64,000 nucleotides of DNA from a virus: positions 1 through 64,000 of the IMG/VR virus record IMGVR_UViG_3300046167_000553; one strand, 5' to 3'. Shown here piece by piece: positions 10,158 through 25,500 of the stretch. Below the pieces are notes generated by a model. The model was not told the origin of the DNA. It saw only the letters and a list, made by a program, of their open reading frames with translations, and searched no databases. Position numbers and translations under genes: made by a program. Numbering within the stretch: the stretch's first letter is position 1; each line of letters starts with the position of its first letter.

Positions 10158-10639
10158 ACTAAATTTTTCGCAGGTTGTTCACCGATTCCAGTGAGTATAT
10201 AGCAAAAATTATAGAAAGAGTAAAGTAGTTAGGAGTCCCATAGGGGGGTACTTCCATATAAGAGGGGGTAGGTGCATCCCCCACCCCTGCGGAGCAGCCT
10301 CTTCCGCGAAATTTTTTATGGCCGACAGCATAACCTACTAGGGTCGCATCCGTTTTGAGAAAAATCGTAATCATTCGTCTGGAATAGTAATAGTAGATAG
10401 TAGATACAAAATTTGTATATCGCGGGGGTCGGTATACCGTGGGTTGCCCCGCGCCCCCTATATCGGGCTGGAGTCCCTACGTCCCAAGCGTTACAGTAAC
10501 AGGTTATGATAAAGTCGGCGATGTTGTTGTAAATGGTTGGCTGTTGTGAGTTAATGATCTCACTGGCGGCGCAGACTGCCAGTGTCATATAAAGTTATAC
10601 ATTTGGTATAACTATTGACAATCAATAGAGACTATTACT
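10158..10639. promoter_or_regulatory. Divergent intergenic control region between late and early arms
   Basis: No supported gene lies in these 482 bases. It separates the first late gene (minus) from the first early gene (plus), so both arms probably start here. Contents: several G5-6 or C5-6 runs (about 10235-10290); a GC-rich inverted repeat CGCGGGG (10421-10427) / CCCCGCG (10447-10453) enclosing the perfect palindrome CGGTATACCG (10430-10439); and, at its right end, the first early-arm palindrome (10594-10612) followed by TTGACA (10615-10620). On the minus strand TATAAT (about 10201-10206) precedes the terminase gene without a good -35. It could also hold a packaging site. Confidence 0.5.
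10594..10612. promoter_or_regulatory. Early-arm palindrome copy 1
   Basis: GTTATAC-ATTTG-GTATAAC, two perfect 7-base arms, 28 bases before the first early ATG. Among the nine copies this is the one best placed to act as an operator for the early arm. Confidence 0.7.
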
Positions 10640-11266
10640 ATGGATAAGAAAGCAGAAAAGATCATTGTTACTGCGGCAGCTAAGCGTACTATCAATGAAG
10701 TAGCAAACGCGTTCACCTCTGGTGAAATCAATATAACCAACGCGCTGAGAGACGCGCAGACCGGTGCAGAACGCGCTGCTAAGAAGCTACTGAAAGCCGG
10801 TGTGACGGCCAACATGATGGGCCTCAACAAGCAAGACCAACGCGCTCTCGAAATTGAGTTTGGCGGTAGCAAGTTAACGGTACTGCATGTTAGAAGCTTG
10901 ATAGATCAGGCGATGGCCGAGGGCCTCTGCAAGTCTGGAGGTATATTCGGGGCGCACCATTTGAAGGCTTTTAACAAGCCCGCGAAAGAACGCACCGTCA
11001 ACGAGGCTAAGGATGCCAAACTGGTACAGCAGCGCCTAGGCGTACTGAGAGCGCGGCTCAAGGCGACTATGGGAGCTAAGCCAACAAAATCGGCTGAGCC
11101 AAAGCAACCGGTGTCACCTTCTGAGAAACTACTGAAGCAAGTGACCGCGTTGATCAACGGTATGCAGAAACTTGAAACACCGGAGTTTGATGTGACCGAA
11201 GCGTGCAAGGCGGCATTTACACTCGCCTTCACAATTGATCCAACGTTCAAGATGGAAAGCAAGTAA
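10640..11266 (+). CDS. First early gene, 208 aa, unknown
   Basis: 208 residues starting MDKKAEKIIVTAAAKRTINE. It is basic and helical, with a repeated AAK/AKR pattern, a linker rich in Pro, Ser and Lys near residue 150 (AKPTKSAEPKQPVSPSEKLL) and a helical C-terminus. I recognise no family. Its setting is telling: it is the only gene between the divergent control region and the iteron-rich stretch, has an operator-like palindrome before it and a strong terminator after it, so it is expressed as a single-gene unit. A regulator or origin-binding role is possible but not shown by any motif. Confidence 0.75.
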   Translation: MDKKAEKIIVTAAAKRTINEVANAFTSGEINITNALRDAQTGAERAAKKLLKAGVTANMMGLNKQDQRALEIEFGGSKLTVLHVRSLIDQAMAEGLCKSGGIFGAHHLKAFNKPAKERTVNEAKDAKLVQQRLGVLRARLKATMGAKPTKSAEPKQPVSPSEKLLKQVTALINGMQKLETPEFDVTEACKAAFTLAFTIDPTFKMESK

Positions 11267-11275
11267 CACCAACCA

Positions 11276-11307
11276 GCCACCTCCAAACGGGGGTGGCTTT
11301 TTTTTCG
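11276..11307 (+). terminator. Rho-independent terminator of the first early gene
   Basis: GCCACCTCC (11276-11284), loop AAAC, GGGGGTGGC (11289-11297), then a run of eight or more T. Nine pairs including one T-G. It begins 9 bases after the stop of the 208-residue gene and shields the origin-like region from its transcript. Confidence 0.92.
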
Positions 11308-11396
11308 CCTCAATTTTGATGCCAGTAGGTTAGTGTAGCATGTAGTTTTTGCTGGCCGCGTTCGTCGCGTGTATACCGCACTGTTAGATACTTATA

Positions 11397-11415
11397 GTTA
11401 TACGTAATGTATAAC
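11397..11415. promoter_or_regulatory. Early-arm palindrome copy 2
   Basis: GTTATAC-GTAAT-GTATAAC, perfect arms with a divergent centre, in non-coding DNA about 60 bases before the first TTGTTATCGG iteron. Confidence 0.7.
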
Positions 11416-11472
11416 TTAATAACAGCATGAAACCAGTAGATCGTGTAGCATCGTGTAGCTGTAGGTTGTAGG

Positions 11473-11522
11473 TTGTTATCGGAGGTTGTAGGTTGTTATC
11501 GGTTTCGTTAGGTTGTTATCGG
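11473..11522 (+). repeat. Three 20-bp direct iterons (TTGTTATCGG)
   Basis: TTGTTATCGG occurs at 11473-11482, 11493-11502 and 11513-11522, exactly 20 bases apart, i.e. about two helical turns, so bound proteins would line up on one face. Each is preceded by TAGG. An inverted copy CCGATAACAA follows at 11546-11555. This regular spacing is the strongest origin-like signal in the window. Confidence 0.75.
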
Positions 11523-11665
11523 TATTGTTACCTTTTTTGGACTTCCCGATAACAAAATACCATTTATAGGAACAGCTCACTACATCCAATCAACTGACTC
11601 TGATTACACTTATAAATGATTGCAGATAGTGAGTAGTAGTAGTAGTAATTTATTTATTTATTGTA

Positions 11666-11993
11666 TTGTTATCGTTTTTTATTATTAAGCAATTATTGGG
11701 GGATGCGCTAGACCCCGCTGGAATGCATTGCCATCCTCCGCACACCTCAGTTCCCACCCTATAGCCACGATAACGCGATAACAATATAACAAATCAATGA
11801 TTTCAACAACTTACACAAAAAAGCGATAACAATACAATAACAAAACGATAACAAAGCAAAAGTTATACAAAATGTATAACTAAATAACAATACAATCGCC
11901 AACGATAACAATACAATCACGCTCAATAACAATACCCCGTCCACCAAATAACAAAAAGGTAACAATACAATCGCCAACGATAACAATACAATA
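11666..11993 (-). repeat. Cluster of inverted iterons (CGATAACAATACAAT family)
   Basis: After a forward copy TTGTTATCG at 11666-11674, minus-oriented copies of CGATAAC occur at 11768, 11776, 11824, 11847, 11903 and 11978, several extended to CGATAACAATACAAT; related ATAACAATAC copies fill the gaps. A 33-base block beginning TAACAATACAATCGCCAACG is directly repeated at 11885-11917 and 11960-11992 (75-base offset). Together with the copies at 11473-11555 they form an iteron field of about 500 bases. Confidence 0.7.
11862..11880. promoter_or_regulatory. Early-arm palindrome copy 3
   Basis: GTTATAC-AAAAT-GTATAAC, perfect arms; the centre is the reverse complement of the common ATTTT centre. It lies inside the iteron cluster, flanked on both sides by ATAACAA repeats. 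Confidence 0.75.
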
Positions 11994-12043
11994 CTGAGCC
12001 AATAACTAAAGAATTGGGCCTTGTTTAACTTGGTTGGTTTTAC

Positions 12044-12072
12044 TTGACTCTAACGTGTTCTCAGCGTATAAT
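12044..12072 (+). promoter_or_regulatory. Sigma70-type promoter
   Basis: TTGACT (12044-12049), a 17-base spacer, and a perfect TATAAT (12067-12072). Transcription would start near 12079 and run right. It is the closest match to a host housekeeping promoter seen in the early arm and probably drives the genes from 12541 onward, with an operator-like palindrome about 110 bases downstream. Confidence 0.8.
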
Positions 12073-12186
12073 GGTTGTTCAATGGTAGTAATTTGTGTTT
12101 GGACGCGTTGCTACCTATGCCGCATGACCCGCTTTTGGTTGTGCTGTGTTGTTGTTGTTATAGAGCCAGTGGTAGGGAGTGCGAAA

Positions 12187-12205
12187 GTTATACATTTTGT
12201 ATAAC
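12187..12205. promoter_or_regulatory. Early-arm palindrome copy 4
   Basis: GTTATAC-ATTTT-GTATAAC, with arms extendable to 10 bases (AAAGTTATAC / GTATAACTTT). It lies in non-coding DNA downstream of the sigma70 promoter, in the probable leader of that transcript. Confidence 0.8.
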
Positions 12206-12540
12206 TTTTGGTCTGAAAGCCGTAGCAGCCATGCAGTTTGTGGTGATGCGCGATCCTATCCAACGCCGGTCAACGCAATACAGTTCCTCCCATCTGCGAC
12301 GATGCACTAACAATCCAAACTAGCCAGCGAAGACCGCGACGGGTACTGGCGAATCACGCAGCGAAAGCACATACCGAGTATGTGTGAGTTGCGCGTGGAG
12401 TGGCTATTCGATGAACCCTCGTTACCAATCCGAGTCAGTATCCAATGAGCCTCGCGCCAAGCGGTAACGCTGGCGAAAAAAACCTGTCCACGGTTTCTCA
12501 ATACCGTGTTGATAAAGCCACAGCAGAAACAGGAGCAAAC

Positions 12541-12780
12541 ATGGATAAACAAAATCTGGAAGTACGTCGTACTCTAAACTCGTTAGAGCTATGGCGCAAA
12601 CGTGCCGTTGGCGAAAGCATCCGGTGCAGCAGTGTGATGCACGCGTTGTTTGATGTAAGGAAAGAGTTAGAAGAAGCAAAGAAAGCACTAACAATGGGCG
12701 ACGAGTCTTGGGCAGACGCGGCAGTTGATCGCGCACAGTCCCTTGTATCCGAAGCACTCACTAGGAGTAACCATGAATAA
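12541..12780 (+). CDS. Small helical early protein, 79 aa
   Basis: Start chosen at 12541, where ATG follows AGGAG by 5 bases; a longer in-frame ATG at 12445 lacks a ribosome site. The 79-residue product (MDKQNLEVRRTLNSLELWRK ...) is highly helical with alternating Lys/Glu and ends in LVSEALTRSNHE. It contains no recognised motif. The downstream gene starts 8 bases before its stop. Its position first after the promoter marks it as an early protein, possibly a host-interaction factor. Confidence 0.65.
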   Translation: MDKQNLEVRRTLNSLELWRKRAVGESIRCSSVMHALFDVRKELEEAKKALTMGDESWADAAVDRAQSLVSEALTRSNHE

Positions 12781-12991
12781 GCTACGTAAACGTTCGTATC
12801 AGCACGCTTGCTTTGGGCGCAGTACCGCAGCAATACCGAGCGCACCCATCGCACCGTTCAACCCCGAGGCCGAAGGTAGGGTAACCCATCAGACCTACAC
12901 CGGTTCCTTGGTTAAAGGTATTGCCACCATGCACAAATCAAACCTGATCCCTGTTACTGAGGGTATCGGCACCAATCCTAAAATTACGTAA
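12773..12991 (+). CDS. Small early protein, 72 aa
   Basis: ATG at 12773 with TAGGAG 4 bases before it, overlapping the previous stop. The 72-residue product begins MNKLRKRSYQHACFGRSTAA and is basic at the N-terminus, then rich in Pro, Ala, Thr and Ile (APIAPFNPEAEGRV), suggesting a partly disordered peptide. No family recognised. The next palindrome begins 9 bases after its stop. Confidence 0.55.
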   Translation: MNKLRKRSYQHACFGRSTAAIPSAPIAPFNPEAEGRVTHQTYTGSLVKGIATMHKSNLIPVTEGIGTNPKIT

Positions 12992-12999
12992 AGCCAATA

Positions 13000-13018
13000 G
13001 TTATACATTTTGTATAAC
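13000..13018. promoter_or_regulatory. Early-arm palindrome copy 5
   Basis: GTTATAC-ATTTT-GTATAAC, directly upstream of the TTAAGGAGAC ribosome site (13021-13030) of the next gene. In RNA the hairpin would end two bases before that site, so it could affect translation as well as transcription. Confidence 0.8.
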
Positions 13019-13020
13019 TT

Positions 13021-13108
13021 TTAAGGAGACACATGGGAACAAGAAGAAGCAACAACATTCAGTATCCAATGAGCTTAAGGAGACACATGGGAACAAGAAG
13101 AAGCAACA
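13021..13108 (+). repeat. Duplicated 34-base ribosome site and start codon
   Basis: A 34-base block (TTAAGGAGACACATGGGAAC ...) occurs at 13021-13054 and again at 13075-13108, an offset of 54 bases or 18 codons. Each copy has the same strong AAGGAG site and ATG, and both ATGs are in one frame. The spacer holds TCAGTATCCAATGAGC (13059-13074), also found at 12435-12450. It looks like a recent duplication. Confidence 0.85.
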
Positions 13109-13440
13109 TGGCGCGTGCGAAACTTACAAGGCCGTCGCATCTAGCCACCATCAGCAAGAACTTGCCTTGCCCAAGCGAATCAGTCATCAGCCAATCGCGT
13201 GACAACATGACGGTACTCGACGCCGTGCTGTTATGGGACTTATATGATGACTGGGCGTACGAGTTGCACATAGAGAACTATGAGCGGCGATCACGAAGGC
13301 TGAGCAACGCGTGTGATGTACTCGCGAAGTGGCTCAGCAATGAGTATGGCATAACGCCAATTGACTGTCTGATTCCTGATCGGACACCTGAACCCATAAA
13401 CAACCCATTCAAAAAAATCTTTGGAGAAAACCATGACTGA
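13033..13440 (+). CDS. Early protein with duplicated start, 135 or 117 aa
   Basis: Two equivalent starts exist, at 13033 and 13087, each 6 bases after an identical AAGGAG. The longer form repeats the peptide MGTRRSN. The shared body begins MARAKLTRPSHLATISKNLP and continues through LLWDLYDDWAYELHIENYER to a short C-terminus; it is helical with no motif I recognise. It overlaps the DUF3150 gene by 8 bases, so it is the leading member of the DUF3150-MoxR-VWA operon and may act with it. Which start is used cannot be read from sequence. Confidence 0.65.
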   Translation: MGTRRSNNIQYPMSLRRHMGTRRSNMARAKLTRPSHLATISKNLPCPSESVISQSRDNMTVLDAVLLWDLYDDWAYELHIENYERRSRRLSNACDVLAKWLSNEYGITPIDCLIPDRTPEPINNPFKKIFGENHD

Positions 13441-14335
13441 ATTAAACTTCAACACCCCTGACATTCAAACCGATGTATCCCTCGCAACCTCAGCGTGTCT
13501 TGTAAGCTGGAATGTATCGTCTTGGTCTGGACGTAAGAAGGACTCTAAAGCTGCTGACAGTTTATCAGTAGCTACCGGCGCACGATCCAAGGCCGTGTCT
13601 GTTCACAAGAAGCTGATCACACTGCCTGAGTTTGAGGCCATCGGTAAGCACGTTGGCTGGGTACGTAATAACTTCCACTACTCTAAGACGCTACCGTGGT
13701 CTGATACAGGCTTGCGATTGCTAGCCACTGAAGAGTTATTTGAGTACAAGCCTCAAATGGAGGAGCATCAGCAGGAGTTCGATAGGCTTGTCAGTGAGTT
13801 CTTCTCAGTATATCTAGACGCGATCAACCGAGGCCGTAACGAATTAGGCACGTTGTTTGATGAGACGCAGTACCCCACGCTTGACGAGCTTGCGGGTAAG
13901 TTCTCTTGGCGTACGACGTTTATCCCTGTACCCACGAGTAATGACTTCCGCATTGATGTATCGCAGGTGCAGAAGGACACCCTAGCAAGTGAGTATGAAG
14001 ATTTCTACCAAGCTGAGATGAAGCGTGCAATGGATACCGTGTGGGTAGACTTGCATACGTCACTGGTAGAGCTAAGCCAGAAACTAGACTTTGAGGCTTC
14101 CGGTAAGAAAAACAAGCTGTTCGCATCACGGCTGGATACCATACGCCAGCTAACCCGATTGCTGGGGTCATGTAACTTTACCAACGATCCCAAGATGGCA
14201 ACGATGCAGCGCAAACTGGCATCAGCGTTTGACGGCTTGACGGTCGAGCAGCTTCGCCATAGTGATTCATTGCGTGTCGAAACCAAGGCTGAGCTTGACG
14301 ATGCCATCCGACAACTTCCTAGCTTGGACTTCTAA
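13433..14335 (+). CDS. DUF3150-family protein
   Basis: Start taken at 13433 (ATG after TTTGGAGAAAACC) rather than the in-frame ATG at 13421. The 300-residue product shows the pattern I know from DUF3150 (PF11348): LVSWNVSSWSGRKKD near residues 23-37, then ARSKAVSVHKKL, then TLPWSDTGLRLLA (86-98), LGTLFDETQYPTLDELAGKF and a PVPTSNDFRI segment. Its biochemical role is unknown. In phages and proteobacteria it is encoded beside a MoxR-type ATPase and a VWA protein, exactly as here, so it is probably the third partner or substrate adaptor of that complex. Confidence 0.72.
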   Translation: MTELNFNTPDIQTDVSLATSACLVSWNVSSWSGRKKDSKAADSLSVATGARSKAVSVHKKLITLPEFEAIGKHVGWVRNNFHYSKTLPWSDTGLRLLATEELFEYKPQMEEHQQEFDRLVSEFFSVYLDAINRGRNELGTLFDETQYPTLDELAGKFSWRTTFIPVPTSNDFRIDVSQVQKDTLASEYEDFYQAEMKRAMDTVWVDLHTSLVELSQKLDFEASGKKNKLFASRLDTIRQLTRLLGSCNFTNDPKMATMQRKLASAFDGLTVEQLRHSDSLRVETKAELDDAIRQLPSLDF

Positions 14336-14336
14336 A

Positions 14337-14355
14337 GTTATACATTTTGTATAAC
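14337..14355. promoter_or_regulatory. Early-arm palindrome copy 6
   Basis: GTTATAC-ATTTT-GTATAAC with 10-base extended arms. The AAAGTTATAC arm begins inside the TAA stop of the DUF3150 gene, and the other arm is followed by a T run, so as RNA it would be a weak terminator-like hairpin inside the operon. Confidence 0.8.
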
Positions 14356-14363
14356 TTTTTAAC

Positions 14364-14570
14364 ATGAAGTATTACGTTGAAGCTTACTACGAGGATGGTG
14401 GTCAAATCCTCGGCAACTGCGACGGGCAAACGGTGCTTAGGTGCCGTAACCCCCGTCGAACAAAGCACTACCGTCATCTACGTGACGTTATTGCTAACCG
14501 CAAGTACCCCAAAGTCTCTTACTACAAGATAGTAGACGACAAGGGCCGACTGTTTGAAACCATCCTATAA
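14364..14570 (+). CDS. Small basic protein, 68 aa
   Basis: 68 residues, MKYYVEAYYEDGGQILGNCD then RCRNPRRTKHYRHLRDVIAN, ending YYKIVDDKGRLFETIL. It is rich in Tyr and Arg and looks like a compact alpha-beta fold. It sits between the DUF3150 gene and the MoxR gene, with a palindrome just before it and no obvious Shine-Dalgarno sequence (TTTTTAACATG). No family recognised; as a member of the cassette it may bind nucleic acid or one of the partners. Confidence 0.6.
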   Translation: MKYYVEAYYEDGGQILGNCDGQTVLRCRNPRRTKHYRHLRDVIANRKYPKVSYYKIVDDKGRLFETIL

Positions 14571-14585
14571 TCTTTGGAGAAAACC

Positions 14586-15674
14586 ATGAATGCATTAAAA
14601 ACTTACGCAGTAAATTTTGAAGAAGCTGTCGCAGCTATCGTGAACCTTGGCGATGAGGTCACCTATGTTTTTGAGGGTGATATGGGTATTGGCAAATCTG
14701 CCATGTTGAAAATGGTCGCGGCGCAACTGCCTGACCACGTACCCTGCTACTTCGATTGTAATACTAAGGACGTAGCCGATGCCTTTGTACCTGACATTTC
14801 CTCAGCGCAAACTGAGAATGTGGTACGTATGGTGCCTAATGCTGAGTTCGGTATTCAACACGGTAAACCTGTTATCCTGATGATCGACGAGGTGGGCAAG
14901 GCTGAGGGTGCTTTACTTAAAGCATTGTTTGCAACGTTCCACGAGCGCAGCATTGGCATGACCCCGTTACCTGAAGGCTCTATCGTCTTTGCAACAACTA
15001 ACCTAGGTGCCGAGAATCTTGGTGACCTGATCCCTCCGCATGGCTTAGACCGTGTAACTAAAGTACGACTCCGAAAGCCGACCCCTACCGAATGGATGGA
15101 GTGGGGCTTCAACAATGACATTCACCCTACCGTTCTGGCGTGGGTAAAAGACAATCCTCAGTTATTCAACTCCTTCGACGATGTATCATCCCCTGAAGAT
15201 AATCACTACATCTACCATCCCAACGTTGTTCGCGACGGCTTCGTTACCCCTCGTGGTTTGGAGCGTGCGTCTAAGATCATTCACAAGATGGACTTGATTG
15301 GTGAGACTATGACTCGTAGCTCATTGATCGGCACGCTAGGCTCTCATGGTGCCGGTGATCTTATGGCGTTTGTGACATTGTTTAATCAAATCCCCTCGCA
15401 TGACGCAATACTATCTAGTCCGACTACAGCCATCGTACCCACCGACGCAGCAGCAGCGTGCATGGTGGTGGCGCGTGCGCTTGTCAAGCTGGAAGCTAAG
15501 GACGTATCTAAGTGGATGAACTACCTAGTACGTTTGGACAAAGGTGCACAAGTATTGTTTGGCTTGCAAGCTAAGGCCAAAACCTACAAGCGTCAGAAGG
15601 CTGTCGTTACTAATGCTGACTTCAACAAGTGGGCCTTGGACAACAGCTACATCTTCAGTGCTGACAAGCGATAG
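14586..15674 (+). CDS. MoxR-like AAA+ ATPase
   Basis: Start at 14586, using the same TCTTTGGAGAAAACCATGA leader as the DUF3150 gene. 362 residues: Walker A GDMGIGKS (31-38), Walker B ILMIDE (97-102), sensor-1 TTN (137-139) and HGLDRVTKVRLRKPT following, all typical of the AAA_5/MoxR group. These ATPases act as hexameric chaperones that remodel or load metal into targets presented by a VWA partner. The VWA gene follows after a terminator. The roughly 170-residue C-terminal part is helical and less typical. In a phage this may remodel a host or virion complex; the target is unknown. Confidence 0.85.
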   Translation: MNALKTYAVNFEEAVAAIVNLGDEVTYVFEGDMGIGKSAMLKMVAAQLPDHVPCYFDCNTKDVADAFVPDISSAQTENVVRMVPNAEFGIQHGKPVILMIDEVGKAEGALLKALFATFHERSIGMTPLPEGSIVFATTNLGAENLGDLIPPHGLDRVTKVRLRKPTPTEWMEWGFNNDIHPTVLAWVKDNPQLFNSFDDVSSPEDNHYIYHPNVVRDGFVTPRGLERASKIIHKMDLIGETMTRSSLIGTLGSHGAGDLMAFVTLFNQIPSHDAILSSPTTAIVPTDAAAACMVVARALVKLEAKDVSKWMNYLVRLDKGAQVLFGLQAKAKTYKRQKAVVTNADFNKWALDNSYIFSADKR

Positions 15675-15692
15675 TTATACAAAATGTATAAC
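15674..15692. promoter_or_regulatory. Early-arm palindrome copy 7
   Basis: GTTATAC-AAAAT-GTATAAC; its first G is the last base of the TAG stop of the MoxR gene. It is followed 6 bases later by a classical terminator, giving two stacked hairpins. Confidence 0.8.
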
Positions 15693-15698
15693 TTTGTG

Positions 15699-15727
15699 GG
15701 GTGACAATTTGTGTCACCCTTTTTTTT
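15699..15727 (+). terminator. Terminator between the MoxR and VWA genes
   Basis: GGGTGACA (15699-15706), five-base loop, TGTCACCC (15712-15719), then eight T. It lies between two functionally linked genes, so it may act as an attenuator that lowers VWA protein relative to ATPase. Confidence 0.9.
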
Positions 15728-15744
15728 ATCAATGGAGAGTTAAC

Positions 15745-17019
15745 ATGAACATGTTAAATATAGGCATGAAGTTCACACTCGAACAGCGTCTCGATAAAGC
15801 CTTGGGCGATCTAATGGACGGCCCCAATGGTGAAGCACGTTACCGTGCAATGGCTGGCATCTTTATGCTGGGCAACTGTTCGGTCAGTGACGAAGCCGAT
15901 GTTACTGCATACACCAATGGTATTGATGAGGTGTATGGTCGTAAGTTCTTTGAGACGTTGAGTGACGCGCAACTGCGCTACGTACGTGTGCACGAGAACA
16001 AACACAAGATGTATAAGCATCCGTCTTTGTTCAAGTGGCTGTTTGATATAGATGCATCAGCAGCAGGTCAAGCTACAGATCACTATATCAACTTACAGAT
16101 AAACGCTGAGAACCCTGACGGCTTTTGCACAATGCCTACCGATGACGCAGGTAACCCTGTAGGCTTTGCCGATCCCAAGTACAAGGGCAAAGACCCAGTG
16201 GCTATATTCTGGGACATTGTTAACGAGAAGAAAGCTAGTGGTGGCAGTGGTAGCAATGACGATGATGCCGACCAGCAGCAAGGTAGTGGTAGTCAGCAAT
16301 CTGACGATGACAACTTCGACGATCACGGACACTTCGATGACACCCTAAGTGCCGAACAAGAAAAGCAAGTGGAGCGTGCTGTCGAGGACGCAATCCGTCA
16401 AGGGCTACTGGCATCAGAGAAGAGCGGTCACGGCGACGTACTGGGGCTAGCTAATCTAGTGGAACCCAAAGTCGATTGGAAAGTAGCGCTTAGGGACTTC
16501 ATACAAGCTAACTGTAAAGGTCGTAGGTTAACAACATACCGCAGACCAAACCGGCGTTTCATGGGTGCGCGTATCTACCTACCAAGTTTGTATGATCAGC
16601 GTGTCGATGACCTGATCATCGCACCGGACTGTTCTGGTTCAATGCTGTCGGCCCGTCAGTGGTCAACTATGATTACCGAGCTACACGCGGCTATTAAAAT
16701 GGTAACACCCAAACGTGTTCACATCTTGTACTGGGACTCCAAAGTACGTGCACATGAAACGTACACCGATCAAACGGCTGATGATATTCTTAAGAGTGTA
16801 CGGCCCAAGGGTGGCGGTGGCACTGACCCTCAATGCATACCTGAGTACATACTTGAGAACAAGATCAAAGGTCAATGTGCGGTAGTGCTGACCGATGGTT
16901 ATTTCTTTTATGGTCAAGGTGAGTGGACTATGCCTGTGCTGTGGGGCGTTATTGACAACAAAGCCTTTCAAGCTAACAAGGGTAAAGCCTTGCACATTGA
17001 GTCGAGTAGCATACGATGA
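15745..17019 (+). CDS. Metallopeptidase-like / VWA protein (DUF2201 type)
   Basis: Start at 15745 (ATG after GGAGAGTTAAC). 424 residues. The N-terminal half has a zincin-like HENKH (83-87) and TDHYIN (111-116), matching the putative metallopeptidase domain of DUF2201 proteins (PF13203). A very acidic Asp/Gln/Ser linker follows (165-200). The C-terminal VWA-like domain (PF09967 type) has an intact MIDAS: DCSGSM (295-300), GGTDP (359-363) and TDGYF (383-387). Such proteins pair with MoxR ATPases; here the ATPase is the gene just upstream. Whether the peptidase is active is unknown, but the HExxH residues are intact. Confidence 0.85.
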   Translation: MNMLNIGMKFTLEQRLDKALGDLMDGPNGEARYRAMAGIFMLGNCSVSDEADVTAYTNGIDEVYGRKFFETLSDAQLRYVRVHENKHKMYKHPSLFKWLFDIDASAAGQATDHYINLQINAENPDGFCTMPTDDAGNPVGFADPKYKGKDPVAIFWDIVNEKKASGGSGSNDDDADQQQGSGSQQSDDDNFDDHGHFDDTLSAEQEKQVERAVEDAIRQGLLASEKSGHGDVLGLANLVEPKVDWKVALRDFIQANCKGRRLTTYRRPNRRFMGARIYLPSLYDQRVDDLIIAPDCSGSMLSARQWSTMITELHAAIKMVTPKRVHILYWDSKVRAHETYTDQTADDILKSVRPKGGGGTDPQCIPEYILENKIKGQCAVVLTDGYFFYGQGEWTMPVLWGVIDNKAFQANKGKALHIESSSIR

Positions 17020-17243
17020 AACAACCTATTGTTAAAAAACTTCCTACCCACAAAAAAGTCAAGTACATGATTGATAACCCCGAGCTTGCGGGAGTATTAT
17101 TAGATCACTGGGCAGGTAGCAGCACCAAAGCCTTTTCTGTAAAAGACGCTAAGAGGTTCAGCAAAGACGTACGTTCGTCTCCGCTTACTATGGGAGAATG
17201 GATGGACATTCAGTGGGAGGGTATGGCTGATGACAAAAGCTGA
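17016..17243 (+). CDS. Small protein, 75 aa, unknown
   Basis: 75 residues, MKQPIVKKLPTHKKVKYMID followed by AFSVKDAKRFSKDVRSSPLT and an acidic end. Starts inside the stop of the VWA gene (ATGA overlap), so it is cotranslated with it. Lys-rich N-terminus, no membrane helix. No family recognised. Confidence 0.6.
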   Translation: MKQPIVKKLPTHKKVKYMIDNPELAGVLLDHWAGSSTKAFSVKDAKRFSKDVRSSPLTMGEWMDIQWEGMADDKS

Positions 17244-17409
17244 AATGCAAATGTTTCACGACGTTAATGATAAGTGTCAAGAGTTAATCCGTGAAAACAA
17301 TGCGCTGAAGAAAAGCCTGAAAGAAGTAACCCATGCCAACGAAGCGTGCCAGTCACTTTCTAGGCATCTAATAAAAATAGTTAGGACTAGGAGAGATAAA
17401 GATGCCTAA
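17230..17409 (+). CDS. Small coiled-coil protein, 59 aa
   Basis: ATG at 17230 with GGGAGGG 8 bases upstream; overlaps the previous gene by 14 bases. 59 residues, MTKAEMQMFHDVNDKCQELI then RENNALKKSLKEVTHANEAC, a clear heptad pattern predicting a parallel coiled coil, with a basic tail. Unknown function; possibly a subunit of the adjacent cassette. Confidence 0.55.
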   Translation: MTKAEMQMFHDVNDKCQELIRENNALKKSLKEVTHANEACQSLSRHLIKIVRTRRDKDA

Positions 17410-17482
17410 AGATTGTGTGTACGCCCTGTCGTTTTTGTTCGCGTTGATTTCTATTTACTCAATCGTTGCTGAGCTACCGTAA
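17402..17482 (+). CDS. Single-span membrane peptide, 26 aa
   Basis: ATG at 17402 preceded by AGGAG at 10 bases; 26 residues with a hydrophobic stretch (YALSFLFALISIYSIVAELP) long enough to span the membrane once. It overlaps the preceding stop and its own TAA overlaps the next ATG (TAATG), so it sits in a chain of coupled genes. Tiny membrane peptides in phage early regions often inhibit host enzymes or act at the membrane; that is inference. Confidence 0.5.
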   Translation: MPKDCVYALSFLFALISIYSIVAELP

Positions 17483-17778
17483 TGAAAGTGGAGGAGCGAG
17501 AGAAGGCAGAGGCCATTATTGCGGCGGCTGATCAGGTGTTGGAAGAGAACTATTACAGGAAGTGGTGTCGAGATTTCGCCACGTTCTGTGGCATGACGCC
17601 CGATGAAATGCATGATGAGTTGCTGTGTCAAACCTTCGGCAGCGGGATGCGTCGGCGTCCTGCAAAGCGATCATCCAAGGCGGCAAGAACTGATTACAGT
17701 GAACTTGTTGAGACCTTGTGCCGAGTGGCTGCGGAGACCGGATACTACATCCCACCCCCGCATGAGGATAGGGAATGA
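17482..17778 (+). CDS. Small protein, 98 aa, unknown
   Basis: 98 residues, helical (MKVEEREKAEAIIAAADQVL), with RKWCRDFATFCGMTPDEMHD in the middle and a Lys/Arg-rich patch before TDYSELVETLCRVAAETGYY. Coupled to the membrane peptide upstream by TAATG and to the next gene by ATGA. No family recognised; four cysteines are spread rather than paired as a zinc site. Confidence 0.6.
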   Translation: MKVEEREKAEAIIAAADQVLEENYYRKWCRDFATFCGMTPDEMHDELLCQTFGSGMRRRPAKRSSKAARTDYSELVETLCRVAAETGYYIPPPHEDRE

Positions 17779-17951
17779 AAGTTATACAAATGTATAACTT
17801 AGCATACGGATATGCTGTTCAGTTACTAGAAGCTGGTTACACATTGGACGAAGCTGGATCAGCAGCATGTATCATGCACAACTTAGATGAGTTTCAGTCT
17901 GAAGATTTGTGCATAAGACTTAATCGTTTCTTTGGAGAAAACACTGTATGA
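17775..17951 (+). CDS. Small protein, 58 aa, with palindrome in its 5' end
   Basis: ATG at 17775 with GAGG 7 bases upstream and ATGA overlap with the previous stop. 58 residues, helical (LAYGYAVQLLEAGYTLDEAG), no known motif. Codons 3-8 are made from palindrome copy 8, so the first residues MKVIQMYN come from regulatory DNA; an internal ATG at 17790 gives a shorter product. The gene overlaps the next ATG. Confidence 0.5.
   Translation: MKVIQMYNLAYGYAVQLLEAGYTLDEAGSAACIMHNLDEFQSEDLCIRLNRFFGENTV
17781..17798. promoter_or_regulatory. Early-arm palindrome copy 8 (4-base centre)
   Basis: GTTATAC-AAAT-GTATAAC. The centre is one base shorter than in the other copies. It lies inside the 5' end of a small gene rather than between genes, and the shorter centre is needed to keep that gene free of stops. 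Confidence 0.7.
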
Positions 17952-18142
17952 AAAATAACACGGTCATTGGAAAGCTTGCACACCCTGAGACTATGGGTAG
18001 AGCAAAACCTGTGGACGACATTATTTCAATTGACAGACTAGAAAAGTTTGTTAACAGGACGTTTCATTGGAAAGGTCTAACAACTTCTGACCAGATGAAA
18101 ATGGCTAAGGAGTTACTACTAAGGAGGCTGGCAGATGATTGA
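17948..18142 (+). CDS. Small protein, 64 aa, unknown
   Basis: 64 residues, MKNNTVIGKLAHPETMGRAK then ISIDRLEKFVNRTFHWKGLT and a helical end. Starts at ATG 17948 overlapping the previous TGA. The upstream TTTGGAGAAAACACTGT resembles the leader used by the DUF3150 and MoxR genes. No family recognised. Confidence 0.6.
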   Translation: MKNNTVIGKLAHPETMGRAKPVDDIISIDRLEKFVNRTFHWKGLTTSDQMKMAKELLLRRLADD

Positions 18143-18224
18143 AGGTGCACCTGAAGTAATCCTTTTTTATGGAATGATCGCTGGAATAATTCTTTGGGCG
18201 TTCTTTGAAGCGAGGGGTAAATGA
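18135..18224 (+). CDS. Single-span membrane peptide, 29 aa
   Basis: ATG at 18135 with an excellent AAGGAGG 8 bases upstream. 29 residues; VILFYGMIAGIILWAFF forms one membrane span, followed by a positively charged EARGK end, so an N-out orientation is likely. Its stop overlaps the start of the DUF3310 gene. It is the second such peptide within 0.7 kb. Confidence 0.55.
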   Translation: MIEGAPEVILFYGMIAGIILWAFFEARGK

Positions 18225-18451
18225 TGGAAAACGATGTGGTCAACAGGCCCAATCATTACATGGTAGCTGGCATTGAAGTTAGGGATATACAAAAGGAGTT
18301 ATGTTCACCCTTCCTAGGTCAAGAAGCAGCAGACCTGAGCAATGCAATCAAGTACCTACTGCGATCCCCGAGAAAGGGAAAGCTTGTAGAAGATTTGAAG
18401 AAGTGCCGCAAGCACATTGACTGGCTAATACAATCAATGGAGGGAAAATGA
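18221..18451 (+). CDS. DUF3310 protein
   Basis: 76 residues (75 if the second ATG at 18224 is used). NRPNHYMVAGIEVRDI at the start, then LSNAIKYLLRSPRKGKLVED and LKKCRKHIDWLI match the DUF3310 pattern (PF11753), a short phage protein sometimes called a nucleotide kinase-like protein without firm evidence. It is widespread in phage early regions. Overlaps flanking genes by 4 bases on each side. Confidence 0.85.
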   Translation: MMENDVVNRPNHYMVAGIEVRDIQKELCSPFLGQEAADLSNAIKYLLRSPRKGKLVEDLKKCRKHIDWLIQSMEGK

Positions 18452-18681
18452 AAACTAAGATTCATGTTAACCAACATGTGATAAGAAGAAACAACAAGTT
18501 AAAAGACCCAGACGCTTTCCATGAACCGCCTATTACTGTCAAGCAGGGTACGTTAAATACCTACTGCAAAGCAGTGGAGGTCACAGGGCCGTGCGTCATA
18601 AAGTATTCACCCGACAAGCCACTATCTTGTGGTGCGAAGGTTTGGATAGAAACCGATTCATCCATCATCTATATAAGTTAA
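18448..18681 (+). CDS. Conserved-type small phage protein, 77 aa
   Basis: 77 residues starting MKTKIHVNQHVIRRNNKLKD and ending in VIKYSPDKPLSCGAKVWIET. I recall the IHVNQHVI start and YSPDKPLSCGAxVWIET end from many phage early regions; the function is unknown. Beta-rich and compact. Starts within the DUF3310 stop. Confidence 0.75.
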   Translation: MKTKIHVNQHVIRRNNKLKDPDAFHEPPITVKQGTLNTYCKAVEVTGPCVIKYSPDKPLSCGAKVWIETDSSIIYIS

Positions 18682-18689
18682 GGAGGTAT

Positions 18690-18941
18690 ATGAAATCCAA
18701 GAAAGCTGATAACCCTGACATACCACTAGACGCCTACCTGTATGGTAGTCCTGAATGGAGAGTAGCAACGTCTAGTTTAGAGTTTGACATATTGCTGGCT
18801 GTTGAAGCAGCAGAAGTTACAAGTGAACACAGAAAAACAAATATGGCTGTTCTTGATGACTTACGTGTTGTACCAATGGACGAAGTAACACCAGAGGAAC
18901 GATCACGTATTGTTGAAATCGTAAAATATCACTTTAGTTAA
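18690..18941 (+). CDS. Small acidic protein, 83 aa
   Basis: Start set at 18690, where ATG follows AAGGAGGTAT; the upstream in-frame ATG at 18591 lies inside the previous gene and is unlikely. 83 residues, MKSKKADNPDIPLDAYLYGS then LEFDILLAVEAAEVTSEHRK, acidic and helical. No family recognised. Confidence 0.65.
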   Translation: MKSKKADNPDIPLDAYLYGSPEWRVATSSLEFDILLAVEAAEVTSEHRKTNMAVLDDLRVVPMDEVTPEERSRIVEIVKYHFS

Positions 18942-18958
18942 TTAATAGGAAACTAACC

Positions 18959-20041
18959 ATGACTTCATTTGAACAAATGCAAATTAATAGCCGACTGGTA
19001 TCAAGCTTAGCGCTACCTTGTGAACACCAAAGCGAGGAATCTAAGCACATGTCATTGAAATCCGGTTGGGTCGTTGACTGTCTGCCGGTCACCCAAGAAC
19101 TTCACGACTACTGCAACGAACTTAGGAAGGCAATGCCCAGTCTACGTTTTGGTGTTGACAGATATGAGTTAGAAGTAGCGCAATCACGCAACGGTGCACG
19201 GCCATTTTCAAAGTGCTTTGTCTACAGGGCAGATGACATTTATGTAATGGGCGCGTTGGGTTTTGGTACTCTAGGTTGTGCTGACCAAGACAAATATCTA
19301 ATCAAGTCTCCGCATATTGAAAACAATATGTTCTGTGCATGGAACCATGCTCACCGATGTAAAGCTACAAAGAACTTAAGGCCAGCCGTAGGCAATGCGT
19401 TGACCTACCTGAGACGGCCAGCTGACAGCGAAGTACTTAACAGTACCATTAGCTCTTATGTGCAAGCAGTGTCTAATTTCCTAGAAAGTGAGCGTCATGG
19501 AATTGCTAAACAAATGCACGAGTTTTACTCAAAGGCTACTGGCATAATGTTTGGTAAGCACTGGGAGGCCAATGAATCTAGGCACGACTTCATTGCTATG
19601 TTGGGTGCGTATCGTTCAAGGCCCGAAAATTGTAGGCCAGCGGCGGGGTCACCTTGGGTTGACGATCCGATGATTCGTCCTATTAACGAGCTAGCTAATA
19701 GTTATTACAAGCTGGTCGATACTAAAACTGATGTGTGTTTGGTTCACCCTGTTAAAAATGTTGATAATGAATTAATAGGCTACAACATCACGACTCTGTT
19801 TGAACAGGAAGCGCGTAAGAATCTCAGCATGCATGAAAGCACGGATGTTACGGTTAAAAAGAATTTAGTGACAAGTGACAACGTTGACCAAGAAATAGCA
19901 ACCAAAGTGGCTACTCTGTCTATGCTTGAAGAGCGCGATTACACGCCGTTGCTTGGCATGAAGCTGGACGGTGACATTTACTACGTAGAAACTAATGTCG
20001 AAGCGTTACCTGATGACTACTATGAAAGGGAGGCTGGCTGA
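18959..20041 (+). CDS. Unknown early protein, 360 aa
   Basis: 360 residues beginning MTSFEQMQINSRLVSSLALP. No motif of a known family is visible. Features seen: YELEVAQSRNGARPFSKCFV, YVMGALGFGTLGCADQDKYL and an acidic C-terminus ending DDYYEREAG; it appears to be a globular alpha-beta protein without membrane segments. It stands directly before the VRR-NUC nuclease and overlaps it (shared base 20041), and is thus coregulated with the DNA polymerase. A DNA-transaction role is a guess from position only. Confidence 0.7.
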   Translation: MTSFEQMQINSRLVSSLALPCEHQSEESKHMSLKSGWVVDCLPVTQELHDYCNELRKAMPSLRFGVDRYELEVAQSRNGARPFSKCFVYRADDIYVMGALGFGTLGCADQDKYLIKSPHIENNMFCAWNHAHRCKATKNLRPAVGNALTYLRRPADSEVLNSTISSYVQAVSNFLESERHGIAKQMHEFYSKATGIMFGKHWEANESRHDFIAMLGAYRSRPENCRPAAGSPWVDDPMIRPINELANSYYKLVDTKTDVCLVHPVKNVDNELIGYNITTLFEQEARKNLSMHESTDVTVKKNLVTSDNVDQEIATKVATLSMLEERDYTPLLGMKLDGDIYYVETNVEALPDDYYEREAG

Positions 20042-20349
20042 TGGCTATGACTCCAGAGGCAAAAGTTAAGCGCAAGGTAACTGACATTCTTAAGAAGTTA
20101 GAATGTTACTACTTTTATCCTGCTACCGGCGGCTATGGTAAGAGCGGTGTGCCTGATATTGTGGCTTGTTACCGAGGTTTGTTTATTGGTATCGAATGTA
20201 AAGCAGGTAAAAACAAACCCACGATGCTGCAAGAGCGCAACTTGGATCAGATAAGAACGGCTGGGGGACTGGCCGTTGTTGTTAATGAAAACAACATAGA
20301 TGCATTGACTGCTCTGATTATTAATTTAAGGATTGATGTATGCGGGTGA
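20041..20349 (+). CDS. VRR-NUC domain nuclease
   Basis: 102 residues. The whole protein is one VRR-NUC module (PF08774): KRKVTDILKKLECYYFYPAT, then GGYGKSGVPDIVACYRGLFI and GIECKAGKNKPTMLQ, giving the catalytic GxPD...ExK residues, then RNLDQIRTAGG. Stand-alone VRR-NUC proteins are common in phages next to helicases and polymerases and act as structure-specific nucleases, probably on branched DNA. It overlaps the polymerase gene by 10 bases. Confidence 0.92.
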   Translation: MAMTPEAKVKRKVTDILKKLECYYFYPATGGYGKSGVPDIVACYRGLFIGIECKAGKNKPTMLQERNLDQIRTAGGLAVVVNENNIDALTALIINLRIDVCG

Positions 20350-22259
20350 TAACGTTAGACACTGAATGCTATGTTAATTACTTTCTTATGGTGTTCACCA
20401 ATCAATCTGGAAAGTCTAAATCATTTGAGATATTTAATGACGATGACTCTACGTTTGATAAGGGTGAGATTGCTAAGATTCTGCTAAACCCTGAACACGA
20501 GATTGTAACGTTTAACGGGAATGGCTACGACATGCCGATTGTTAATCTTGCATTGACAGGCAGGGCATCCAACTCCGATCTTAAAAGAGTTAGCGACGAC
20601 ATAATCGTAAACAACCAAAGGTCTTGGCAGGTTTACAGGAAGTACGGCATTGAACCTTTGCCCGTGAATCACATTGACCTGCAAGAAGTAGCGATCGGTA
20701 TGGTCAGCCTGAAGATATACGGAGGTAGGATGCACAGCAAAAAGCTGCAAGACCTACCGCTTGAACCTGATACCGTAATCCAACCGGAACACTTGTCTGA
20801 TATGCGTAAGTACTGCAAGAACGATACGCTATTAACTCTTGATCTGTATAACACGTTAGAGAAACAAGTAGAGTTAAGACGAACCATGAGTGCCGAGTAT
20901 AAAACAGACCTGCGCTCAAAATCAGATGCTCAGATAGCAGAGGCCGTATTAAAAGCTGAGTATAAACGTATACACGGTGACTTCCCTGAGCGAGTGCCGT
21001 TAGACTACAAAGAGTTTTACTATGCGCCGCCGAGCTATATTAAGTTTATATCACAAGAACTTAAGGACATGCTCAATACCGTAGTGTCTGCAAAGATGGA
21101 AATATCAGATACCGGTCACGTTGCAATGCCCAAAGAGATTGCCAAGCTGAAAATAAAGATAGGCAATGGCACATACAAGATTGGTATTGGGGGATTGCAC
21201 AGTCAAGAGTCTGAAGTATCTCATCACGAGGATGAAGATTATATACTTCTTGATAGAGATGTAGCCTCTTACTATCCCACCCTCATGCTCAATCTCAAGC
21301 TATTTCCCAGCGCCTTTGGCGACACTTTCCAAACAGTTTACCGTAATATCCTAGAGACAAGACTGAAAGCCAAGGCTGATGGCAACAAGACTGTTGCTGA
21401 CTCATTGAAGATTGTTCTCAATGGTACGTTTGGTAAAACTTCAAACGTTTATTCCAGCCTGTATAGTCCTGACTTAATGATAGCTACTACTCTGACAGGT
21501 CAGTTGTCGTTACTTATGTTAATAGAAGCTATTGAATACATCGGGTGCGAGGTCGTATCAGCCAATACAGATGGTGTGGTTATTAAATCAGCACGTAGTT
21601 TAAAACCTACACTTGATAACTTAGTCGCTCAGTGGGAGAGACGCACCAATCTTGAGACAGAAGAGACGCTATATACTTCTTTGTATTCCAGAGATGTTAA
21701 TAACTACATAGCGATAAAGCCTGATGGTGTAAAGACCAAAGGAGTGTACGCCCCAGACGGTTTAAACAAAAACCCCCAAGCACCTATCTGCGTCGAGGCT
21801 GCTACCCAATACCTTTTAAATGGAATACCTTATGAGGAAACCATAACGTCATCCGGGGACATGACACGTTTTGTAACCGTGAGAAGAGTTACGGGTGGTG
21901 CAGTCAAAGACGGAACCAATCTAGGAAAAGCTATACGCTGGTACTACAGCACCGACAACAAGAACCCCATAACATATTTAAAGAATGGCAACATCGTTCC
22001 GCGTTCCGAGGGTGCAAAGCCTTGCCTAGATTTACCTACCGAGTTTCCAACAGACATTGATTACCAATGGTATATTGCCGAAACCAAAGATATACTGGTA
22101 TCAATTGGCGCTTTGCCTAGACCTGTGTATGAAAAGCTACCACGTAAAAATAGCAAGAAGTGGAAAGAGTTATTTCAAGCAGGTGAAATACAATTAGACG
22201 TTAAAGGTAAATCGCAATGGGTACACCCCGAGCAGCACCTTGGAGTTTCAGCAAGATAA
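20340..22259 (+). CDS. Family B DNA polymerase, short form
   Basis: 639 residues. An N-terminal 3'-5' exonuclease has DTE (7-9), TFNGNGYDMPI (57-67) and YCKNDTLLTLDLY (158-170). Polymerase motifs: A, DVASYYPTLM (307-316); B, KIVLNGTFGKT (357-367); C, SANTDGVVI (407-415), where the usual DTD is NTD, as I recall for other short phage members. At 639 residues it is shorter than cellular family B enzymes (750 or more) and lacks an obvious uracil-sensing N-domain. No terminal-protein gene was recognised, so the primase-helicase downstream more likely primes it. Confidence 0.9.
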   Translation: MRVITLDTECYVNYFLMVFTNQSGKSKSFEIFNDDDSTFDKGEIAKILLNPEHEIVTFNGNGYDMPIVNLALTGRASNSDLKRVSDDIIVNNQRSWQVYRKYGIEPLPVNHIDLQEVAIGMVSLKIYGGRMHSKKLQDLPLEPDTVIQPEHLSDMRKYCKNDTLLTLDLYNTLEKQVELRRTMSAEYKTDLRSKSDAQIAEAVLKAEYKRIHGDFPERVPLDYKEFYYAPPSYIKFISQELKDMLNTVVSAKMEISDTGHVAMPKEIAKLKIKIGNGTYKIGIGGLHSQESEVSHHEDEDYILLDRDVASYYPTLMLNLKLFPSAFGDTFQTVYRNILETRLKAKADGNKTVADSLKIVLNGTFGKTSNVYSSLYSPDLMIATTLTGQLSLLMLIEAIEYIGCEVVSANTDGVVIKSARSLKPTLDNLVAQWERRTNLETEETLYTSLYSRDVNNYIAIKPDGVKTKGVYAPDGLNKNPQAPICVEAATQYLLNGIPYEETITSSGDMTRFVTVRRVTGGAVKDGTNLGKAIRWYYSTDNKNPITYLKNGNIVPRSEGAKPCLDLPTEFPTDIDYQWYIAETKDILVSIGALPRPVYEKLPRKNSKKWKELFQAGEIQLDVKGKSQWVHPEQHLGVSAR

Positions 22260-22900
22260 AAGCTTTTGAGCAATGCCCTAGACAGTTTCACCAAGTCAAG
22301 GTTATAAAAGCTTATCCACAAGAAGAAACAGATGCCATGTTATATGGCACGGCCTACCACGAGGCGGCTGAGTTTTATGTTAGAGATAACACGCCGCTCC
22401 CTCCGCAGTTTGAGTTCTCTCAAAAACTTCTTGATTCATTAAATGCAAAGACAGGTAAAAAGCTCTGCGAGTACGAGTTGGGTTTAACCGCTGATCTTGA
22501 GCCTTGCACATTCAAGGCAGACGATGTTTGGTTCAGAGGTATCGTTGACCTACTTATATTAGATGAGGAAAACGAGTTAGCGTGGGTCATTGACTACAAG
22601 ACGGGTCGGAACACAAAGTATGCCGATACGGGTCAGTTGGAGCTTATGGCACTTGCAACCTTCAAACACTTCCCTCAAATCAAAAAGGTAAGAGCAGGGC
22701 TGCTCTTTGTTGTAGCTGATAAGTTAATAAAAACAAGTTACGATAAAGAAGATAGCATTAAGTTGTGGCAAAAATGGTTGTCTGACTACAGTAGAATGGA
22801 AAAATCGTTTGACAATGACGTTTGGAACGCCCATCCTAGTGGCTTATGTCGTAGGCATTGCCCAGTAAAGGAATGCCCACACAACGGGGCTTATGGTTAA
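22217..22900 (+). CDS. PD-(D/E)XK nuclease, RecB/Cas4-like
   Basis: 227 residues. SFSKIKAFEQCPRQF at the start, then GTAYHEAAE (44-52), GIVDLL (108-113), VIDYKTG (124-130) and GQLELMA (139-145) are the motifs of the PDDEXK_1 superfamily. Cys20 and Cys211, Cys215 and Cys220 have the one-plus-three arrangement of the Fe-S cluster in Cas4 and AddB, so a 4Fe-4S site is likely. Overlaps the polymerase gene by 43 bases. A role in processing DNA ends for recombination-dependent replication is plausible; no CRISPR array or cas1 is nearby. Confidence 0.88.
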   Translation: MGTPRAAPWSFSKIKAFEQCPRQFHQVKVIKAYPQEETDAMLYGTAYHEAAEFYVRDNTPLPPQFEFSQKLLDSLNAKTGKKLCEYELGLTADLEPCTFKADDVWFRGIVDLLILDEENELAWVIDYKTGRNTKYADTGQLELMALATFKHFPQIKKVRAGLLFVVADKLIKTSYDKEDSIKLWQKWLSDYSRMEKSFDNDVWNAHPSGLCRRHCPVKECPHNGAYG

Positions 22901-23157
22901 TGGCTAGAGATTACAAAAAAGAGTACCAGACGCAAAAGAAACGGGGCGAAACCCCTGATCGGATGGAACGTCAGCGTGCACGCAGGGCCATTGATAAGCG
23001 CGATACAGGGACAGTTACAAAGAAGTCTCCCAAGCGTAAAGGTAAAGATGTAAGTCACAACAAAATGCTCAGCAAAGGCGGCAGCAATAAAGACGGCTAC
23101 CGCTTAGAAAGCCCTTCAAAGAATAGGGCAAGGAACGGCCAAAAGAAAAAGAAGTAA
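22900..23157 (+). CDS. Small basic HNH-like protein, 85 aa
   Basis: Start placed at 22900, where TAATG couples it to the nuclease stop; an ATG at 22858 is out of context. 85 residues, MARDYKKEYQTQKKRGETPD, then KGKDVSHNKMLSKGGSNKDG and SPSKNRARNGQKKKK. The H..MLSKGG..DGYRL.S.SKNR pattern recalls the C-terminal half of small HNH-type proteins found in phages, but the usual first His-Cys part is missing. Strongly basic, probably nucleic-acid binding. Confidence 0.65.
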   Translation: MARDYKKEYQTQKKRGETPDRMERQRARRAIDKRDTGTVTKKSPKRKGKDVSHNKMLSKGGSNKDGYRLESPSKNRARNGQKKKK

Positions 23158-23158
23158 A

Positions 23159-23177
23159 GTTATACATTATGTATAAC
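23159..23177. promoter_or_regulatory. Early-arm palindrome copy 9
   Basis: GTTATAC-ATTAT-GTATAAC with 10-base extended arms; the left arm begins inside the TAA of the preceding gene. It is the last copy, in the 78-base gap before the SNF2 helicase gene. Confidence 0.78.
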
Positions 23178-23235
23178 TTTAGTATCTGAGTGACGCACAC
23201 GCGTTTCGCTCCGCTCTGTTATGCAAGGAGACTGC

Positions 23236-25236: not shown

Positions 25237-25500
25237 ATGTCTGATAAAGAACAACCGGCCACAAGCCCTTTTGAAACTACAGAGGGCGTTGCACAGTATT
25301 TTAACGTGTCTGTCTGGACAGTTAGAGACTGGGTTAAACGTGGCATCATACCCTCATCAGCTTACATAAAGGTAGCTAAGACTACTCGCTTTAAGCTGGA
25401 TCAAGTGGAAGCTGCATTGGTATCAGTAATGTCTCAAGACGAAACTGAAACCGAAGCAGACGACGAGCCTGTAACTGTAGAACCCATTTACCTTAACTAA
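25237..25500 (+). CDS. HTH DNA-binding protein (MerR/excisionase-like)
   Basis: 87 residues. Residues about 14-40 form a winged-helix type HTH (TEGVAQYFNVSVWTVRDWVK then RGIIPSSAYIKV), followed by TRFKLDQVEAAL as the wing and an acidic tail. This is the helix_turn_helix_17/AlpA-like fold used by excisionases, small regulators and some replication proteins. It is the only obvious HTH protein in the early arm, so it is the first candidate to bind the palindromes, but nothing links it to them directly. Confidence 0.8.
   Translation: MSDKEQPATSPFETTEGVAQYFNVSVWTVRDWVKRGIIPSSAYIKVAKTTRFKLDQVEAALVSVMSQDETETEADDEPVTVEPIYLN

Follow-up and report, generated by a model that had tools for sequence, protein, structure and literature searches.

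Palindromes dispersed along the early arm of a viral genome change together with the first early gene and resemble stoperators

The operators of phage lambda overlap promoters and are located in two clusters. In the cluster A mycobacteriophages, the sites of the repressor Rep, known as stoperators, are dispersed and mostly not associated with promoters; they act by blocking elongation and are served by type-specific repressors (PMC6550527). These stoperators are asymmetric, and Rep binds them as a monomer that has two DNA-binding domains (PMC9283540). Here we describe a set of dispersed palindromes in a viral genome that invites comparison with these systems, and for which no earlier description was found in the open-access literature, including the paper on the HTVC023P group (PMC9599517).

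The first-pass annotation of the window (the whole stretch of 64,000 nucleotides that was analysed) had reported nine palindromes of the form GTTATAC-N4/5-GTATAAC. All nine were recovered where it had placed them (Table 1), with perfect 7-bp arms in every case and with arms that, as it had claimed for several of them, are longer and in several reach 11 bp. One palindrome with 11-bp arms, AAAGTTATACATTTTGTATAACTTT, has an MFE of -8.6 and a z of -5.0. The centre, which includes versions such as ATTTT and AAAAT, measures 5 nt in eight palindromes and 4 nt in the one at 17781. All of them are confined to the rightward early arm (10.6–23.2 kb), and the complete record of 64,692 bases contains no copy outside the nine and none of the reversed pattern used as a control. 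The absence of the motif from the late arm thus held, and it is not equally frequent in the late genes. When three mismatches were allowed, a search with the N5 pattern returned the same eight sites only, a number that none of 100 shuffled sequences reached (mean 2.9). The described contacts with genes were likewise found: the palindromes at 14337, 17781 and 23159 begin 1–2 nt past a stop codon, the one at 15674 shares bases with the TAG that ends the ATPase gene, and the one at 13000 adjoins a ribosome site. The equal spacing of 1337 nt between 13000, 14337 and 15674 was discarded as a coincidence, given that the spacings in the near relative G006 are 1278 and 1336.

Table 1. Positions of the palindromes and of other features in the window
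Feature	Coordinates	Strand	Context
Palindrome 1	10594..10612		27 nt 5' of the ATG of the putative regulator gene; probable autoregulatory site of that gene
Palindrome 2	11397..11415		Non-coding region
Palindrome 3	11862..11880		Within AT-rich, iteron-like non-coding region
Palindrome 4	12187..12205		About 108 nt past the predicted start of the 12044-12072 promoter
Palindrome 5	13000..13018		Just 5' of the ribosome site of the gene at 13033
Palindrome 6	14337..14355		Between a 304-aa gene (stop 14335) and the gene at 14364
Palindrome 7	15674..15692		Overlaps the ATPase-gene stop; followed by a terminator-like hairpin (15698-15720) and then the VWA gene
Palindrome 8 (4-nt centre)	17781..17798		Past the stop at 17778; overlaps the start region of ORF 17775
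Palindrome 9	23159..23177		Between an ORF ending at 23157 and the SNF2-helicase gene at 23221
Putative site-specific DNA-binding regulator, 208 aa	10640..11266	+	First gene of the early arm; all-helical family not recognised before
Candidate specificity segment of the 10640 protein	residues about 131-148		QQRLGVLRARLK...
Terminator-like hairpin with T-run	11275..11298	+	3' of the regulator gene
Strong sigma-70-like promoter, TTGACT-17-TATAAT (11/12)	12044..12072	+	Best plus-strand match of the early arm
MoxR-like ATPase gene	14574..15674	+	Landmark for finding relatives
HTH_17 protein	25237..25500	+	Conserved whatever the site word

Some other features of the same region are worth recording. 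An AT-rich non-coding stretch at 11460–12000, containing directly repeated GGTTGTTATCGG along with numerous inverted iterons of the CGATAACAATACAA type, is a likely replication origin. An exact duplication of 34 bp, TTAAGGAGACACATGGGAACAAGAAGAAGCAACA, at 13021–13054 and 13075–13108 includes the ribosome site and the start codon, so that one ORF has two starts, stacked one behind the other. A replication module is marked by a Hjc-like resolvase (20041–20349), a PD-(D/E)XK exonuclease (22217–22900) and a DUF927 primase/helicase-like protein (26456–29299).

Relatives were collected by alignment of the ATPase, which gave 332 in viral contigs, of which 80 loci were read, and by alignment of the terminase, which contributed 80 more loci, including more distant ones. 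The near relative G006 (65.4 kb), most of whose proteins are 70–99% identical to those of the window, carries eight copies at corresponding places, so that relatives do not lack the motif at syntenic positions; seven of these are clearly syntenic, the counterpart of 17781 is only approximate, and there is none for 11862. The centres in G006 (ACCGT, ACACT and others) differ from those of the window while the arms are the same; therefore, the arms are held constant while the centres drift. A blind count of repeated inverted repeats revealed, in nearly every relative with the ATPase, a repeated palindrome particular to that phage, in 2–13 copies per locus. These share a common build, i.e., arms of about 7 bp around a centre of 3–5 nt whose length differs by 1 nt within single genomes, and they occupy homologous places (the counterpart of palindrome 6, for instance, is kept ahead of the ATPase gene), with arms that differ from phage to phage. 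The words seen include GTTATAC, GTTAGTG, GTTAGGG, GTTAGTC, GGTAGTC, TGTAGTG and TTTACGG, and further TTTAGGG, TCTATAC, AGTATGG, TTCGGGC, GTTATAG and CTAGCC. Wherever a full or long record was examined, its sites were restricted to the early arm. No repeated palindrome was found in the first 50 kb of each of the isolates HTVC023P and DSL-LC04. The AT-rich G003 (L133) was set aside as a relative, as it shares no protein with the window; it has two exact GTTATACGCTGTGTATAAC sites, at 30031 and 30640, inside a duplicated 5' leader and each ahead of a ribosome site. A second recurring element, GAAACCAGTT..GCG..GAGCC (ACCAGTT...), accompanies many of the palindromes that relatives have in their non-coding region (L168: 7215, 7370; L173: 8114, 8165, 8278; L185: 8177, 8247, 8292; L213: 5682, 5730, 5801), and is not enriched in the window.

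The whole set of palindromes can differ between phages that are 91–96% identical in DNA, and pairs alike in DNA and unlike in word were aligned. Locus L149 (GTTAGGG) and loci L148/L151 (GTAGTC) are 96% identical across 12.8 kb, and the main unaligned block (7145–7713 in L149, 7248–7949 in L148) is the first gene of the early arm. In the pairs L172/L185, L203/L207 and L173/L160 the first early gene is likewise unaligned, together with other, smaller stretches. The positions of the sites are retained through the change: for 10 of the 11 sites of L172 there is a site of L185 no more than about 50 nt away, and this holds even within the VWA gene. In the window, the first early gene is the ORF at 10640–11266, between palindromes 1 and 2, whose product the earlier annotation had listed only for a gel shift, and which this co-variation points to as the candidate regulator. 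Two words are found in one genome in G004 (L136/L137; 14862–24560), where AGTTAGA-N5-TCTAACT sites surround the regulator gene (14862–17477) and GTTATAC sites follow downstream at 18310, 21775 and 24542, with an imperfect one at 19561; this genome looks like an evolutionary INTERMEDIATE, with an apparently half-completed specificity switch.

Homologues of the first-gene protein amount to 74 ORFs from the loci (for example in G023, E 9e-20, and G001, E 1e-14). Family members are clear in the window, G001, G006, G014, G017 and G023, and weak in G004 (E 0.003); none was found in G020 and G002, whose contigs start inside the early arm. Two copies with different recognition segments occur in L196 (5782–6420 and 7393–7974) and in L240 (minus-strand ORFs 5703–6224 and 6563–7081), and no second palindrome word was found near the first copy of L196. 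Among 42 non-redundant members, with words assigned by the analyst from repeat counts, the distance between site words correlated with that of a 23-residue segment of the protein at r=0.61 and with that of the terminase/ATPase backbone at r=0.08; partial Mantel tests, which correct only partly for relatedness, gave p=0.0005 for the segment given the backbone and p=0.0005 given the rest of the protein, and the reverse test (the rest of the protein given the segment) gave no clear signal (p=0.057). Because the segment had been seen before testing, an unselected sliding-window scan was added, which peaks at residues 131–148 of the window protein (r=0.63). The best single columns are W139, 138, 135, 136 and 140, a spacing compatible with one face of a helix. 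The arms GTTATAC are common to the window, G001, G005 and L239, of which the last three are without a GVLRARL-like segment, so the code is not one-to-one. From the co-variation as a whole, the first-gene protein is very likely the reader of the palindromes.

The earlier annotation had proposed the HTH protein at 25237 as a repressor candidate. This proposal was abandoned, since the protein is nearly identical between phages of different word, as in G019 and G029 (TTTACGG versus GTTAGTG), and a protein conserved across site types is not the site reader. Used as a control in the correlation with word distance, it gave r=0.28 (p=0.014).

The first-gene family has no Pfam or PHROG identity. AlphaFold2 models of its members are all-helical and confident (pLDDT 86.5 and 90.3); a search of the PDB with these models gave no match below E 0.001 and no known DNA-binding fold, and one viral model, A0A6J5RDQ4, was matched by fold at E 0.04. 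Queries with the L161 and L168 homologues found no isolate phage that encodes the protein.

Another aspect is whether the palindromes act as duplex DNA or in the transcript. As RNA, they would be boxB-like hairpins, with the first early gene encoding the N-like antiterminator that binds them, or processing sites, the latter being one of the roles that the annotation had suggested. The sites do lie in transcribed leaders behind promoters, the first early gene occupies the position of N, the stems fold, the loop length differs by 1 nt, some sites are followed by terminators, and GC-rich relatives allow pairing between the 5' flank and the centre. However, a role of the transcript loop would make the centres repeat in one orientation, and of 686 pairs of centres within genomes 108 are identical and 106 are reverse complements. 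Likewise, the 22 imperfect sites with one mismatch give no sign of tolerance for wobble pairs (A-C 5, G-U 1, other 16), and at 208 residues the first-gene protein is bigger than typical N proteins. Indirectly, the equal orientations and the lack of a G-U preference favour duplex DNA, and in all likelihood the palindromes work as such, the variation of the spacer by 1 nt being the best argument to the contrary; an action in RNA is unlikely. The flank pairing just mentioned, which forms a nested alternative hairpin in G001 (L127), G004 (L136) and G005 (L112) as in GCCCC-GTTATAC-GGGGC-GTATAAC, resembles a pseudoknot; it is found only in these GC-rich genomes and is absent from the window and G006.

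The placement of the sites bears on what a bound protein could do. Strong sigma-70-like promoters were defined as matches of at least 11/12 to the consensus, with starts that are predicted and not mapped; in 22 of 24 of them across relatives, against 3.6 expected by placement, the start is followed within 0–140 nt by a palindrome, and none of the 24 is overlapped by a palindrome, the nearest site being 32 nt past the predicted start. A counterpart of the 12044–12072 promoter is present in most relatives, and no minus-strand promoter of at least 11/12 occurs in the region. Of the sites, 81% are intergenic, against 35% of positions drawn at random from the span that they cover; they often lie 0–9 nt past a stop codon and within about 35 nt ahead of the next start; about 45 of 251 are inside coding regions. 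A roadblock to elongation would be expected to give this order of promoter, site and gene, recurring from one gene junction to the next, and repression of transcription by such a roadblock of the putative regulator is probable.

The same DNA sites could instead have a positive role, in which the bound protein loads onto or pauses the passing RNA polymerase and allows it to read through early-gene terminators. The site at 15674 fits this idea, as a terminator-like hairpin comes directly after it, then a gene, and little space is left for a new promoter, and the order is similar in L160, L173 and L196. Against it, many sites precede no terminator, the palindromes have no direction, and known Q-type sites are located within promoters; we consider this role slightly less likely still than an action in RNA. 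A role outside transcription, in DNA replication, in partition or in the organisation of the genome, is very unlikely: three of the nine palindromes are in or near the iteron-rich non-coding region at 11397–12205, but the rest occupy gene junctions along 10 kb, and sites lie behind strong promoters. The same dispersal along genes and behind promoters does not fit the centromere-like array that the annotation had also entertained. A mobile or selfish MITE-like palindrome without regulatory role, to which the near identity of copies within one genome could be attributed, is hardly conceivable given that position is kept while sequence switches, that the sequence is tied to the recognition segment of one gene, and that placement is intergenic and behind promoters.

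The explanation that we prefer is that the palindromes are duplex DNA binding sites of the first-early-gene protein. The protein would probably bind as a symmetric dimer, with each GTTATAC half-site contacted by one subunit, and read the bases mainly with the helix around residues 131–148. It would occupy its own leader, the site behind the 12044–12072 promoter and the gaps between early genes, where it would block or slow the elongating host RNA polymerase and so limit or shut off the early genes, its own included. It could also silence a superinfecting phage with the same site word, and phages might evade each other, as heteroimmune phages do, through exchange of the regulator gene and a rewriting of every site. 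That the small first-gene protein reads the word to hold back early gene expression is thought very probable; the whole reading, with restraint of early transcription at stoperator-like sites and immunity-like switching of specificity, is judged from sequence comparison to be rather likely. Several facts speak against it: a spacer that varies by 1 nt within genomes is unusual for a rigid dimer, some sites are in coding regions, no known DNA-binding fold was found, and GTTATAC arms occur with unlike segments. A search of eight genomes for tyrosine and serine integrases found none, and lysogeny is therefore not evident. Immunity between virulent phages is a suggestion for which we would give equal weight to either outcome. 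Evenly balanced, too, is the broader proposal that virulent phages have a new DNA-binding family with an unrecognised fold, whose members read a helix-coded word at palindromes resembling stoperators, and that the 8–14 sites are rewritten upon regulator exchange because such phages repress one another on co-infection, a genome like G004 being half switched.

How a regulator and its many sites change specificity together is an old open question. These phages offer a natural library of matched pairs of protein and DNA site, with over a dozen words and dozens of cognate protein sequences, as well as near-identical pairs with a different word and one apparent intermediate, from which a code of protein-DNA recognition could be read and tested directly. 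If the reading is true, immunity-like repression exists in phages that have no visible lysogeny module, which bears on the competition of aquatic phages inside a cell.

Compared with known systems, the sites share with the hairpin promoters of the N4 virion RNA polymerase a short, hairpin-capable form ahead of early genes in podovirus-like phages; nevertheless, an N4-like promoter was rejected, as no conserved start-site sequence adjoins the sites, and host-type promoters are present. With the lambdoid N/nut system they share the association with the first early gene and the location of hairpin-capable, type-specific sites downstream of early promoters, but here the centres are blind to orientation, there is no G-U tolerance and no N-like protein. 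The lambdoid cI/Cro operators are also palindromic DNA sites whose immunity-type specificity is exchanged together with the regulator gene, whereas the 8–14 sites described here lie behind promoters and punctuate the whole early arm. The annotation's comparison with dispersed operators such as stoperators is the part of its interpretation that stood, since the sites are intergenic, lie behind early promoters, keep their positions and co-vary with one gene. As in the Rep/stoperator system of the cluster A mycobacteriophages L5 and Bxb1, many near-identical sites are dispersed in intergenic gaps, one of them is at the regulator gene itself, and the set of sites and the (here putative) regulator change specificity together; the elongation block, which is the stated mechanism there, fits the position of the sites downstream of promoters here. 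In contrast, stoperators are asymmetric 13-bp sites mostly in one orientation, while these are perfect palindromes with centres equally in both; Rep is a monomer with an HTH and a second domain, while the protein here is all-helical and, as judged by database searches only, without a Pfam, PHROG or PDB relative; and the cluster A phages are temperate, while the eight genomes searched here yielded no tyrosine or serine integrase. The present system differs further in that the sites of strong promoters are always downstream and that the whole set changes between genomes 91–96% identical. In view of its site symmetry and protein family, it is therefore not a member of the Rep/stoperator system, which it resembles in its logic and not in evident lifestyle.
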